DNA of 64,000 nt from Nitrospinaceae bacterium. GTDB lineage: Bacteria > Nitrospinota > Nitrospinia > Nitrospinales > VA-1. Location of the stretch: the NCBI GenBank assembly GCA_029261655.1, contig JAJDAY010000009.1:1-64000 (forward strand), in the 5' to 3' direction. This document shows, in pieces, positions 5,271 through 10,140 of this stretch. Position numbers and translations under genes: made by a program. How positions within the stretch are numbered: position 1 is the stretch's first letter; each line of letters begins with the position of its first letter. The notes beneath the pieces were generated by a model. That model made no database searches. It had not been told where the DNA came from and worked only from the letters and a program-made list of their open reading frames with translations.

Positions 5271-6164
5271 ATGAAAACCTATGAAGATCTCGCCGGAGAT
5301 GGCGGATCAAATATCATCAGCCAGGTGGTTTCACAAAGGGAAAAACTTCGCGCCCGGCTGGACAAAATAAAACACAAGGTCGCTTTAATGAGCGGTAAAG
5401 GCGGTGTCGGCAAGAGTTCTATCACAGCCAATATAGCAGCCTGCCTTGCCGACCGGGGGCATACGGTCGGAATTCTCGATGCTGACTTGAACGGCCCCAG
5501 CATTTGTCACCTGCTGGGTGTGGGCAATGATGAGAAGCTGGTCATCAACGACGATGGAATCAAAGCCGGCGAAGGGGCGATGGGAATCAAAATCATGTCA
5601 ATGGACATGTTGCTGTCCAGCCCGGACACGCCCGTCATGTGGACGGATGACGCGGGAGCGACTTCCACGTGGGTGAGCACCATGGAATCGACGGCGCTCC
5701 GCGAACTGCTGGCCGATACCATCTGGGGCGAACTCGACTACCTGTTGATCGACATGCCTCCGGGAAGCGACCGCATGGATAATATCCGCGACCTGATTCC
5801 CGAATTGGCGGGGGTGGTTGAAATCACCATTCCTTCCCAGCTTTCCCAGCACATCGTTTCAAAATCGATCACCAAAAACAGTAAAATGGGGGTTCCTATC
5901 ATCGGCCTGATTGAAAATATGGCCACCTATATTTGCCCGCATTGCGACAAGGAAGGAAAACTTTTTGAAGGCCAGGATGCCGAGCTTTTGTCCAGCAAAA
6001 AAGGCATTAACTATATCGGGAAAATTCCCTTCGACACCCGGGTGTCCAGAAAAACGGATTCAGGATCTTTATTTTACGCCGAGAACAAGGACTCCATCAC
6101 CGGAAAAGCCATTGCCGGGGCAGTCGATTCCATTATCAAATTTATTGAAAATAAAACCAATTAG
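5271..6164 (+). CDS. Mrp/NBP35-type P-loop ATPase lacking the MIP18 domain
   Basis: Iron-sulfur carrier/assembly ATPase of the Mrp-Nbp35 class, cytoplasmic. The deviant Walker A motif SGKGGVGKSS lies at residues 41-50, followed by ILDADLNGPS (switch region) and LLIDMPPGSDR. A C-terminal CPHC pair near residue 222 would bind the bridging Fe-S cluster between two subunits. There is no N-terminal MIP18 (DUF59) domain, unlike the second Mrp at 9046-10140; about 35 charged residues replace it. The gene is followed 8 bases later by a PCP-reductase-like gene, so the two probably act together. Length (297 aa) is normal for a domainless Mrp. Confidence 0.88.
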   Translation: MKTYEDLAGDGGSNIISQVVSQREKLRARLDKIKHKVALMSGKGGVGKSSITANIAACLADRGHTVGILDADLNGPSICHLLGVGNDEKLVINDDGIKAGEGAMGIKIMSMDMLLSSPDTPVMWTDDAGATSTWVSTMESTALRELLADTIWGELDYLLIDMPPGSDRMDNIRDLIPELAGVVEITIPSQLSQHIVSKSITKNSKMGVPIIGLIENMATYICPHCDKEGKLFEGQDAELLSSKKGINYIGKIPFDTRVSRKTDSGSLFYAENKDSITGKAIAGAVDSIIKFIENKTN

Positions 6165-7315: not shown

Positions 7316-7615
7316 TTACCCAAGTGCCTGATGTGGTTTTTTCTCGCTGGTCCAATCCATCCAAGAAGGTTTCGGCGCGGGTTGGCGCAGGGGAATTCGA
7401 TTCAAAAGTTCATCATAATCGATCTCTTCACCCGGTGTTTCAGAATAAACCGGCAGGGTTTCTTCCTGAACAGGAAAAGCGGTCTGTACTTCATCTGTAC
7501 GTCCGGCCAACAGAACAGTCAGAAGAATAAACGCCAGCGTTGCCGCCGCAAGTTTGCAGGGAAAAGCAAAAATCGCAGGAAATTGTTTTACGATGGAACC
7601 GTGAGGCTCAATCAA
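7316..7615 (-). CDS. Small single-pass membrane protein coupled to XRE regulator
   Basis: Not recognised. A 99-residue protein with one strong hydrophobic helix (about residues 20-40, CKLAAATLAFILLTVLLAG), then an acidic, proline-rich tail. It would be a bitopic inner-membrane protein. Its TTG start overlaps the TGA stop of the upstream XRE gene (TTGA), a layout typical of translational coupling and the main reason to accept the gene. It may act as a membrane partner or anchor of the regulator; this is inference. Confidence 0.5.
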   Translation of the reverse strand: MIEPHGSIVKQFPAIFAFPCKLAAATLAFILLTVLLAGRTDEVQTAFPVQEETLPVYSETPGEEIDYDELLNRIPLRQPAPKPSWMDWTSEKKPHQALG

Positions 7616-8043
7616 CCTGTCGGTTTTTTTGAGGTTTTCCTCCCCTTCTCCCCTTCCAATTTGGCCAGTCTTTCTTCCAGGCCGCGGATTTTTTCTTTTT
7701 GCAGTGCAATAATCTGGTTTTTATCTTGAATCATTTCATGCTCCCATTGAGTCATAGAGCTATTATCCCTACCCCCACCGCTGTTATCAACAGGCATTTG
7801 CCTCAATTCCGGATTGCCACGGTCCTTCGCTGAGGTCTCCGGATTTTCTCCCGACACCAGCCAGGTTTCAGTGGTTTCCAGAGCCCTGGCCAGTTTGATG
7901 AGCGATTCAACGCTTGGGATATTTTTACTTTTTTCCCAATCACTTATATCGGGCGGATGACATCCCACCCGTTCGGCCAATTCCTTACCCTTGAGGCCTA
8001 ATAACTTCCGACGAAATACAATTCTGGGGCCAATGGTTTCCAT
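7612..8043 (-). CDS. XRE-family transcriptional regulator with coiled-coil tail
   Basis: Helix-turn-helix at residues about 8-62: FRRKLLGLKGKELAERVG, then PPDISDWEKSKNIPSVESL, the classic lambda-repressor/Cro pattern with a DISDWE recognition helix. A Ser/Gly/Asn-rich linker follows, then a C-terminal helix rich in E, K, L and R that looks like a coiled coil for dimerisation. It probably binds a palindrome near its own promoter or the divergent Sm-like promoter. The downstream membrane protein overlaps it by 4 bases. The family includes phage-type repressors and RodZ-like proteins; the split HTH/membrane arrangement is reminiscent of RodZ but no RodZ sequence is visible. Confidence 0.85.
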   Translation of the reverse strand: METIGPRIVFRRKLLGLKGKELAERVGCHPPDISDWEKSKNIPSVESLIKLARALETTETWLVSGENPETSAKDRGNPELRQMPVDNSGGGRDNSSMTQWEHEMIQDKNQIIALQKEKIRGLEERLAKLEGEKGRKTSKKPTG

Positions 8044-8195: not shown

Positions 8196-8225
8196 TTGAC
8201 TAATTTTTTAGTTTTCATGTATATT
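8196..8225 (+). promoter_or_regulatory. Promoter of the Sm-like gene pair
   Basis: TTGACT (8196-8201), an 18-base spacer and TATATT (8220-8225). A 16-base palindrome begins immediately after the -10 box. It lies about 70 bases before the ATG at 8295, in an AT-rich intergenic region. Confidence 0.55.
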
Positions 8226-8241
8226 ATTCCGTATGCGGAAT
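8226..8241. promoter_or_regulatory. Operator-like palindrome ATTCCGTATGCGGAAT
   Basis: Inverted repeat with arms ATTCCG and CGGAAT around TATG, directly abutting the -10 box, so it would cover the transcription start. Such placement suits a repressor. The divergent XRE protein is the obvious candidate; this is inference. Confidence 0.5.
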
Positions 8242-8294
8242 TTTAATTTTTTAGGAACAAAAAAACCAGCCTTTTTAAAATTAAGGAAGCCATT

Positions 8295-8552
8295 ATGGAA
8301 TTGAATATGGGAAAAGAAAATCAGGAAGGGTTGATACCTTTGATCGGCAAACGGGTCACGTTGTTTTGCGTCAATTATATCTACACCGGGACATTGACCG
8401 CAGTGAACGATGCGTCTGTCATTCTGACCAACCCCGCTATCGTTTATGAAACAGGTCCGCTAAAAACTAAAAAATGGAAGGACGCGCAAAATTTTCCCAA
8501 CGACTGGCAGGTCCAAAAAAATTCTATCGAATCGTTCGGAGAGCTGAAATGA
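8295..8552 (+). CDS. Sm/Hfq-fold-like small protein, 85 aa
   Basis: The core LIGKRVTLFCVNYIYTGTL-TAVNDASVILTNPAIVYETG has the strand pattern of an Sm-like barrel: strand, Tyr-x-Tyr-x-Gly turn, acidic ND turn, strand. The C-terminus (KKWKDAQNFPNDW, then SIESFGELK) is also distinctive. From memory, close relatives of this small protein occur scattered in many proteobacteria, often in accessory regions; their function is not established. It could bind RNA, as Sm proteins do, but no lysine-rich face is obvious. The start has AAGGAAG upstream. Its stop overlaps the next start (ATGA), so a second peptide is probably translated with it. Confidence 0.75.
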   Translation: MELNMGKENQEGLIPLIGKRVTLFCVNYIYTGTLTAVNDASVILTNPAIVYETGPLKTKKWKDAQNFPNDWQVQKNSIESFGELK

Positions 8553-8704
8553 AACAACGCAACAGATTTCGGTTGAGGAATTCAGTGATGTCGGCTTCAG
8601 GACGGAAATCATGGGCAAATTCCTGGTCTGGCCCTTTCACCATGAGATATTGGCGTTTTTCCTGGTCGGGAAGCAGGTCGCATTCCCTTTCCTGGGCGGG
8701 CTAG
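8549..8704 (+). CDS. Ser/Trp/Arg-rich 51-aa peptide coupled to Sm-like gene
   Basis: The ATG overlaps the TGA of the Sm-like gene (ATGA), which suggests translational coupling. The 51-residue product is basic at its start (KQRNRFRLR) and then rich in Ser, Trp, Gly and Arg (SWANSWSG, RFSWSGSRSHSLSWAG). It matches no family I know. It has no signal or membrane helix. Its TAG stop is the same CTAG that forms the stop of the convergent DUF971 gene. The odd composition means it could also be a chance frame. Confidence 0.4.
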   Translation: MKQRNRFRLRNSVMSASGRKSWANSWSGPFTMRYWRFSWSGSRSHSLSWAG

Positions 8705-9042
8705 TTTTTTTTACAGGATTCGCACTGGCAAAGTTTTCTCAGCAACTCATGCGGGTACAATCCCGTGTCATGCCCGTCGTTCCAGAAAAACTGGACCGCG
8801 TACAACCCGACAGACTTAATATCCTTGGGACGAATCGAATCTGGGATCATCCCCGGTTTGATTTTTTTTTCGCCGCTCCACTCATCAATACAGTTCGCAC
8901 AGGGACAGCTTTCCCGCAACTTCTTGACCCCATAAACCGACTCATGCCCGTCCGTCCAGGTGATACCCAGCGTGGTGGCGTCGATCTGATGCAACTTTTT
9001 TGGCGATGGATGGTTGGAGTCCACCTTGGTAGCTTCGCTCAT
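8701..9042 (-). CDS. DUF971 (GBBH-like N-terminal) domain protein
   Basis: Small protein of the family similar to the N-terminal domain of gamma-butyrobetaine hydroxylase. Diagnostic blocks are ITWTDGHESVYGVKKLRESCPCANC and VQFFWNDGHDTGLYPHELLR, with cysteine pairs CPCANC and CQCESC that could bind zinc or Fe-S. DUF971 genes lie beside mrp/apbC in many genomes, as here: it starts 3 bases after the Mrp stop on the same strand. A helper role in Fe-S cluster delivery is inferred from that association. Confidence 0.88.
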   Translation of the reverse strand: MSEATKVDSNHPSPKKLHQIDATTLGITWTDGHESVYGVKKLRESCPCANCIDEWSGEKKIKPGMIPDSIRPKDIKSVGLYAVQFFWNDGHDTGLYPHELLRKLCQCESCKKN

Positions 9043-9045
9043 ATT

Positions 9046-10140
9046 TTACTCCTTCCATGCCAGATCAAAAGTAGCTTCCGCTTTGTCCTCTTTGGCCTGT
9101 TGAATGCTCAATTGCGCCGCCACCTGGCCGGCCAATTGGGTATAAGCGACACTCGCCGGAGATTCAGGATTGCTCAATAAAATCGGAACTCCGGAATCCC
9201 CTCCCGTGACCACCTCGGGAATAATGGGAATTTCGCCTATAAAAGGAATTTTAAAAGTATCCGCCAGCGTTTTTCCACCGCCGCTTTTGAAAATATGATG
9301 TTTTTTATCGCATCCGTCACACACAAAATAACTCATGTTTTCCACAATGCCTAACAGCGGAACCTTGACCTGCTGAAACATCTTAACCCCTTTATCGGCG
9401 TCGATCATACTGACTTCCTGAGGCGTGGTCACCACCACGGCTCCTGAAATCGGCGCTCTCTGGGTCAGGGTCAACTGCACGTCCCCCGTTCCCGGAGGCA
9501 GGTCGATGACAAGATAGTCCAGCTCTCCCCATTCCACATTCTGCAAAAACTGCTGGATAATGCCGCCCAGCATGGGTCCCCGCAACATCAAAGGTTGTCC
9601 CTGCTTGGTCAGAAAGGCCGCGGACACGACTTTCAGTCCGTACTTTTCGTGGGGAAAAAACTTATTTTCCTCCCCGACTCTGGGCGAGGAAATCGGGATT
9701 CCCAGCATTTGCGGAATACTGGGCCCATAAATATCCGCGTCCATCAAACCTACTTTGGCGCCGGATAACTGCAAGGCAATCGCCAGATTGGTGGCGACGG
9801 TGGATTTCCCGACTCCGCCTTTACCACTGGCCACGGCGATGATATTTTTGACTCCGGTTAAAATCGGCTGGCTGTGCTCGGAGGCGCGAACCACAGCCGT
9901 CATATTGACGGACACGCTGGCGACTCCATCAATGGCTTTGGTTTTGGTCTCGCACTCGGCTTTCAACTGCTCTTTCACCGGACAGGCCGGGGTGGTCAGT
10001 TCTACGTCATAACTGACAGTGCCATTTTCAATTTTCATGTTTTTTACGAAACCAAGACTGACAATATCTTTATGAAGATCCGGATCCTCCACGGTCTTCA
10101 ACGCGGCGATTATTTTTTCCTGCAAGGCTTGATCCGACAT
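9046..10140 (-). CDS. mrp: Fe-S cluster carrier ATPase Mrp/ApbC with MIP18 domain
   Basis: Full-length Mrp/ApbC. Residues about 1-85 form the MIP18 (DUF59) domain (LKTVEDPDLHKDIVSLGFV). The ATPase domain has ASGKGGVGKSTVATNLA, MDADIYGPSIPQMLG and DLPPGTGDVQLT, and a CDGC pair that would hold a bridging Fe-S cluster. It carries or inserts Fe-S clusters into apoproteins in the cytoplasm. At 364 aa it is normal length. It heads a unit with the DUF971 gene. It is clearly distinct from the shorter paralogue at 5271-6164, so two Mrp types coexist within 4 kb. Confidence 0.93.
   Translation of the reverse strand: MSDQALQEKIIAALKTVEDPDLHKDIVSLGFVKNMKIENGTVSYDVELTTPACPVKEQLKAECETKTKAIDGVASVSVNMTAVVRASEHSQPILTGVKNIIAVASGKGGVGKSTVATNLAIALQLSGAKVGLMDADIYGPSIPQMLGIPISSPRVGEENKFFPHEKYGLKVVSAAFLTKQGQPLMLRGPMLGGIIQQFLQNVEWGELDYLVIDLPPGTGDVQLTLTQRAPISGAVVVTTPQEVSMIDADKGVKMFQQVKVPLLGIVENMSYFVCDGCDKKHHIFKSGGGKTLADTFKIPFIGEIPIIPEVVTGGDSGVPILLSNPESPASVAYTQLAGQVAAQLSIQQAKEDKAEATFDLAWKE

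Follow-up and report, generated by a model that had tools for sequence, protein, structure and literature searches.

In the window, by which we mean the whole stretch of 64,000 nucleotides that was analysed, a gene for a small Sm-like protein is followed on the same strand by a second small frame (Table 1). This second frame begins on the ATGA overlap (8549-8552) and ends with TAG (8702-8704), and its 51 codons give a peptide with 12 Ser, 8 Arg, 5 Trp and 4 Gly. An initial annotation of this DNA had proposed an Sm-like gene overlapping a compositionally biased 51-codon frame by ATGA, and both frames were confirmed. The Ser plus Trp count of the second frame was reached by none of 1,611 open frames in 20,000 shuffles of the stretch, which as mononucleotide shuffles are a rough control only. 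The candidate ribosome-binding site of the peptide lies 5 nt before its ATG.

Table 1. Positions of the gene pair and of the features around it in the window.
Feature	Position	Strand	Remark
XRE (HTH_3) regulator gene	7612..8043	-	divergent; HTH_3 E 1.3e-12
Promoter-like site TTGACT-18-TATATT for the pair	8196..8225	+	10/12 matches
Imperfect 6-4-6 inverted repeat	8226..8241	+	two 6-bp arms, non-self-complementary TATG between
Sm-like (family A) gene, 85 aa	8295..8552	+	ORF
GGAGAG, candidate ribosome-binding site of the peptide	8538..8543	+	within the Sm-like gene
51-aa Ser/Trp/Arg/Gly peptide gene	8549..8704	+	ATGA overlap with the Sm-like gene
GBBH-like_N gene	8701-9042	-	converging

The control region was less straightforward than had been described. 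The promoter claimed upstream of the pair was found, but ten sites of such quality occur in the 2.6-kb region against 3.5 expected, and the site is partly conserved in the relatives G002 and G004 and not in G003 or G001. What had been called a 16-base palindrome controlling this promoter is really a 6-4-6 inverted repeat whose TATG centre is not self-complementary. No conservation of it was seen in the four aligned same-genus relatives, CTAATTTTT and TGTATATTA being common to G000, G002 and G004 only, and perfect 6-4-6 inverted repeats number 30 in the window, where about 16 would be expected. The lack of conservation speaks against the palindrome as an operator, and the repeat is probably without function. 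The divergent XRE gene was present as annotated; its nearest NCBIfam profiles are DicA and phage RstR, both under the cut-off.

On the other side, the peptide gene and the converging GBBH-like_N gene, which we take to be DUF971-type, end on a common CTAG (8701-8704) with a TAG stop each. Genes for Mrp/NUBPL-type P-loop ATPases stand on both flanks (5271-6164, +, and 9046-10140, -, the latter named by eye), the former being followed by a gene for a PCP_red protein. Adjoining the XRE gene, 7316-7615 (-) encodes a small protein with a single hydrophobic segment, which has a clear relative at the same place in the genome G008 (L009:2965-3417) and may be part of the same inherited block as XRE. A prophage in the window was considered and rejected, as the examined neighbours are not phage-like, XRE excepted.

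Conservation of the pair in Nitrospinaceae

Orthologues of the Sm-like gene were found in 6 of 60 genomes, its own included: all five of the genus, one of 32 in the rest of the family and none of 18 in the order or of 5 in the class. A profile search of 77 genomes of the phylum returned the identical six carriers. The second frame is open in all six loci with 50-51 codons, its start overlap being ATGA in four and GTGA in two, and the GGAG before the start keeps its position in five. The initial annotation had named an interrupted frame in relatives, or a missing second ORF, as grounds for giving up the pair, and the frame is uninterrupted in all relatives found. Within the genus the mean pN/pS is 0.31 for the peptide frame, whereas the other two forward frames reach 1.77 and 1.21; these means exclude pairs with G008, a member of another genus, for which the peptide frame gave 0.34-0.59. 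The 51-aa peptide is thus, judging from its substitution pattern, under purifying selection, and the conservation in 6/6 loci together with the pN/pS of 0.31 rules out a chance open frame. The antisense frames gave 1.41, 0.44 and 1.49; coding in the one with 0.44 was rejected, since it holds a stop in G003 and such a value is expected where wobble positions coincide. A hydrophobic +1 frame from 8611 was dismissed with a pN/pS above 1.

It had further been suggested that the regulator is part of the unit, and in this lineage the XRE gene (E<=1e-20) occurs in exactly the same 6/60 genomes as the Sm-like gene. The same genes also lie upstream in G008, so that the XRE gene, the Sm-like gene and the peptide look like one inherited unit. 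Of the flanking genes, the cyclase on the left is variable (4/37 genomes) and the DUF971-type gene is general (36/37).

Phage relatives and the predicted Sm fold

Outside Nitrospinaceae, the phage record ctah5458 holds an Sm-like protein with 68% identity at a place without an annotated gene. Among the uncultured phages of IMG/VR a strict query gave 8 loci with this family (family A) and a profile search gave 105 relatives, of which 80 were kept as the family A set; many IMG/VR loci are near-copies or one contig twice. With the nitrospinal loci and repeated contigs included, 98 Sm-like ORFs in 97 loci were obtained; 97 have some downstream sequence, representing 79 distinct downstream DNAs. 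By script and eye, a Ser-rich frame was found after the Sm-like ORF in 97 of 97. The weakest cases are L026 (19 codons, read by eye), L075 (23 codons), L024 and L089 (frame cut by the contig end), L085 (frame 208 nt from the Sm-like gene) and L040. In the unique A loci the repeat gene starts at -4 in 46 of 66 and at -1 in 7 (L026 and L040 having been dropped before this count), and a Shine-Dalgarno core is present in 18/66 at a control rate of 0.09. The Sm-like frame L040:4001-4260 has an in-frame TGA where a conserved Trp stands, for which a nonsense change, a sequencing error and a recoded host are candidates. One phage contig carries two complete pairs of Sm-like and repeat genes in series (L045:4049-4940).

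We also searched in the reverse direction, scanning IMG/VR for (TCTNGG)6 and (TCGNGG)6 alone, which gave at least 120 loci each. Of 204 arrays among the matches listed that had at least 1 kb available upstream, 134 are preceded by an Sm-like gene at a distance of up to 1 kb, compared to 536 of 12,700 random positions in the same loci (4.2%). On the same strand the upstream partner of these listed arrays belongs to family A in 64, to a second family (B) in 70 and to neither in 70; an Sm-like gene lies within 1 kb downstream in 7 and upstream on the opposite strand in none. Listed short ORFs in which R, G and W are all present have an Sm-like partner in 119 of 159, listed arrays without all three in 9 of 34. 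Since the family B model was built from loci of the array scan, B was searched by protein too. This gave 391 relatives, the best 80 of which were kept as 79 loci. Of the 62 unique ones with 150 nt or more of downstream sequence, 60 carry the repeat gene, the exceptions being L405 and L427. The phage ctTUS972 has an annotated B pair with an ATGA overlap, the B protein being accompanied by MNAAIIRAGLDASWSWSWSWSRSRSWSWSGSRSGSRSRSGSGS. The initial annotation had stated that similar Sm-like genes often have another small, biased gene behind them. Both directions of search strongly support this, and the two-gene module is almost certainly real.

Families A and B are homologous by profile (hhalign 97.1%, E 7.7e-11), and a search with the B profile gives a weak match to the nitrospinal gene itself. 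The Sm-like protein L317:422-667 (-) mixes motifs of A and B (VFETG and a KTPTFYYIG stretch) and is perhaps an intermediate. DUF6948 was discarded as a name for family B, as Pfam gave no match. In a midpoint-rooted tree with few columns, the nitrospinal Sm-like proteins nest within the phage homologues, beside L056 (support 98/87). The nitrospinal pair is, judged by these sequence relationships, a chromosomal copy of a two-gene phage module. Spread of the pair by plasmids was rejected, there being no match of family A or B in 72,556 plasmid records. A search of 84,980 species used two exact peptide patterns; this kind of pattern catches 8 viral loci against 105, so absence from other bacteria is not established.

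The Sm fold assigned in the initial annotation was right as far as prediction goes. The AF2 model of family A has a pLDDT of 91.3 (64 sequences), and its 50 best PDB matches by Foldseek are Sm/LSm/SmAP-type entries. VIA gave a Z of 10.4 to 9dtr_r and of 10.3 to 1i8f_C, with Z at least 8 in 412 of 954 chains, and the top matches listed are again Sm/LSm/SmAP. The model of family B (pLDDT 93.9) matches mostly Sm/LSm/SmAP entries (best E 2.7e-3), LSM14, Tral and the Edc3 decapping complex included. Both families are thus predicted to have an Sm fold. An RNA role, as had been proposed, is possible. The median net charge of the Sm-like proteins is -2 in A and -3 in B, and that of the window's own protein is 0.

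In Pfam the Sm-like protein stayed under the cut-off (LSM14, E 0.038, 14.5 bits compared to a cut-off of 30), and no other Sm family, Hfq included, was listed. NCBIfam gave nothing above cut-off for it, PHROGs no match below E 0.01 for A, B or the repeat proteins scanned and PADLOC no match for the Sm-like or repeat proteins; for XRE, PADLOC gave weak HTH-only matches to RmrA and capH. As far as such searches reach, both genes lie outside the families of Pfam, PHROGs, NCBIfam and PADLOC. In phages the pair is surrounded mostly by genes of early DNA metabolism (methyltransferases, Erf, exonucleases, helicase, DNA polymerase exonuclease subunit, SSB), in a tally of the 25 commonest families listed from 121 of 226 ORFs, which were hand-picked and mostly longer.

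The repeat protein and its coding

In phages the product of the second gene is a leader followed by an (S-[R/G/W])n repeat, and the protein is free-standing with 23-118 aa. Its median net charge is +11 (n=64), with 7 Trp and no acidic residues at the median; the nitrospinal peptides have +9 (n=6). The nitrospinal peptide is, by its composition and position, a degenerate relative of this phage protein in which the regularity has been lost. At A loci the leader is basic, often like M-I-R-G-K-K-Q-K-W, before the Ser-X repeat with X as R, G or W, and B leaders are often like M-N-A-A-I-L-R-A-G-F-D. Among the A rows 41 of 50 leaders have a net charge of at least +3, among the B rows 1 of 56; the rows are related by descent, so that any p-value is inflated. 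The leader type follows the partner family in these comparisons, and this agreement could be mere co-inheritance.

The coding of the repeat was compared in 68 A elements, after removal of the nitrospinal loci, of L026 and of any element in which Ser occurs fewer than 8 times. By serine codon these are TCT in 25, TCG in 25, AGC in 11 and TCA in 7. Across the classes X is G at.33-.42, W at.23-.29 and R at.26-.27 (R.14 in the TCA class), which is about G.36, R.27 and W.25 in three of the four, and NGG makes up 75-89% of the X codons. Arg is encoded by AGG where the serine codon is AGC or TCT (C at N below 2%) and by CGG where it is TCG (A at N 3.7%), with Trp and Gly unchanged. Serine is kept across AGC and TCN, codons two bases apart. 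As four serine and two arginine codons yield nearly one composition, the phage repeat is selected as a protein. In 69 family B elements X is R.30, W.30 and G.27, and the codon flip is weaker (169 CGG versus 88 AGG in the TCG class). TCC is the repeat serine codon in 0/68 A and 1/69 B elements; TCC before NGG would give CCNGG, a common restriction motif.

When the same Sm-like protein occurs in different phages, the repeat lengths differ by multiples of 6 nt in seven of eight groups, the eighth (L085/L086) differing by 39. Repeat length thus changes by whole units as far as the assemblies tell, lengths read from metagenomes being possible artefacts of assembly. The repeat gene is present in many copies, tandem or scattered, in L099, L112, L152, L155 and L191, some behind one Sm-like gene and some far off.

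Possible functions of the module and known systems

In the grammar of phase-separating proteins, Arg and aromatic residues act as stickers and Ser and Gly as spacers. Our best explanation overall, to which we give somewhat less than an even chance, is a phage module of a hub and a sticker-spacer polymer that was captured by Nitrospinaceae. The Sm-fold protein would be the hub, holding the leader of its own partner, and the repeat would be a minimal polymer in which Arg and Trp are the stickers and Ser and Gly the spacers, binding both nucleic acid and itself. At an early stage of phage infection it would drive the formation of a multivalent nucleoprotein assembly or condensate, by analogy with the Edc3 LSm domain in yeast P-bodies. 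An ancestor of the Nitrospinaceae would have captured the module along with XRE, a phage-type repressor that probably still acts as the switch of the pair, and the lineage would keep a domesticated copy beside this repressor-like gene.

That the module works as an assembly scaffold is a tentative proposal, and the step from its anatomy to an assembly is one that we infer. Opposite charges of the partners (-2/-3 and +11) and cognate leaders (at least +3 in 41/50 A and 1/56 B) speak for it, and the early-gene neighbours point to an assembly early in infection. Precedent for phase separation through an LSm domain and the short motifs bound by it comes from PMC4320757 (as far as its available text goes), and the Arg-richness of prokaryotic RNA-binding low-complexity regions (available text of PMC6821194) is a further point in favour. 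Against it, the Sm-like proteins are mildly acidic and the window's own has a net charge of 0. In the nitrospinal copy the regular repeat is mostly gone, and whatever the pair does there cannot require a long sticker-spacer polymer. A bolder version, rather unlikely in our judgement, is that phages encode a minimal two-protein condensate machine that builds an RNP or replication compartment and was captured by at least one bacterial lineage. Here the repeat would be a two-letter code of Ser and one variable residue, the base before GG (A/C, G or T) would toggle between Arg, Gly and Trp as charged sticker, spacer and aromatic sticker, and slippage of units would tune the valence.

The antitoxin, protamine-like and Rof-like readings remain alongside the assembly scaffold. 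In type II toxin-antitoxin pairs the partner comes first and coupling is tight, and our pair resembles them in both. The Sm-fold protein might be a chaperone or antitoxin neutralising a cationic Arg/Trp peptide that acts on membranes or nucleic acids, that is kept in step with it by translational coupling and that is aimed at the host or rival phages. The peptide's charge of +11 with 7 Trp at the median, the opposite mean charges of the partners and the XRE neighbour in Nitrospinaceae fit this, and antimicrobial peptides acting through nucleic-acid phase transitions have reportedly been published. We consider it unlikely, however, since addiction pairs are common on plasmids and none of the 72,556 plasmid records matched, since L099, L112, L152 and L155 carry the repeat gene many times in tandem, behind a single Sm-like gene or with none, and since there is no PADLOC match. 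A very basic, Ser/Arg-rich protein with no acidic residues at the median, among neighbours such as SSB, Erf and RecE-like genes, could also coat or condense phage DNA like a protamine, with the Sm-like protein as its loader; this is quite unlikely, structural genes being rare among the neighbour families listed and repeat lengths varying widely between near-identical phages. If the phage Sm-like protein instead blocked Rho or another RNA machine, early operons would be read through, with the basic peptide binding RNA alongside. Phages need anti-termination, Rof is an Sm-like Rho inhibitor coupled to yaeP (PMC11018626, in its available part) and the pair sits among early DNA genes, but such a role accounts for neither the repeat nor the leaders. 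Family A gave no match to PDB chain sequences at E<=10 and hence no detectable relation to Rof, and Rof is absent among the 50 structural matches listed for family A by Foldseek and VIA, a listing that cannot exclude it; we regard anti-termination as distinctly improbable.

Two further possibilities carry little weight. The hexanucleotide repeat of Ser codon and NGG might itself be the functional element, as DNA or RNA, with the peptide incidental, which would suit the 75-89% share of NGG and the near-absence of TCC (0/68 and 1/69). The AGC and TCN classes, however, have no common hexamer yet code the same protein, the R codon flips with the class while leaders and start overlap are kept, and the nitrospinal peptide is conserved without the repeat, making this highly improbable. 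The defence-like unit suggested in the initial annotation could draw on the XRE neighbour and its weak HTH-only matches to RmrA and capH. It is scarcely likely at all, the homologues lying mainly in phage contigs, beside phage DNA-metabolism genes, and the pair having no PADLOC match.

The Sm fold was already known; the repeat protein, its pairing with an Sm-like gene and the cognate leaders are new as far as the open-access literature reaches, in which no description of them was found. The phage gene pair occurs hundreds of times in a single viral collection and has no family name; of the two phage records with the pair, one leaves the Sm-like gene unannotated. If the module is indeed an assembly scaffold, it would offer a compact, genetically tunable model of bacterial phase separation and a prokaryotic parallel to LSm-based RNP granules, and the nitrospinal copy is a small, stable version for structure work.

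Compared to known systems, the pair is like type II toxin-antitoxin loci in its two overlapping small genes. With the Sm/LSm/SmAP superfamily (SmAP1 1i8f, Lsm1-7, SmF/SmG) it shares the predicted Sm fold and a short N-terminal helix, whereas family A has 9-24% identity among the matches listed and the Sm-like gene is coupled to one for a repeat protein. SR proteins and RGG/FUS-type low-complexity domains have Ser-Arg dipeptides in common with the phage repeat, and presumably also the grammar of Arg/aromatic stickers and Ser/Gly spacers. The phage repeat differs from them in its strict Ser-X alternation with Trp and as a free-standing protein of 23-118 aa. Prokaryotic RNA-binding low-complexity regions are Arg-rich, while aromatic residues and Arg are heavily under-represented in prokaryotic low-complexity regions (available text of PMC6821194), so that the repeat has a composition that the known regions avoid.

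Rof/YaeO with yaeP is alike in being a small bacterial Sm-like protein with a coupled small gene. Rof inhibits Rho, and its coupling to yaeP is reported for Enterobacteriaceae; it differs in this target and in the lack of a repeat protein, and the available part of PMC11018626 does not describe it as phage-borne. The Edc3 LSm domain forms reconstituted yeast P-body droplets with helical leucine-rich motifs, and the likeness of Edc3 and LSM14 (Scd6) to the module lies in the LSm domain as a hub for protein motifs (PMC4320757, in its available part). These P-body proteins are eukaryotic and multi-domain, whereas the phage module consists of two separate genes with an S-[R/G/W] repeat.
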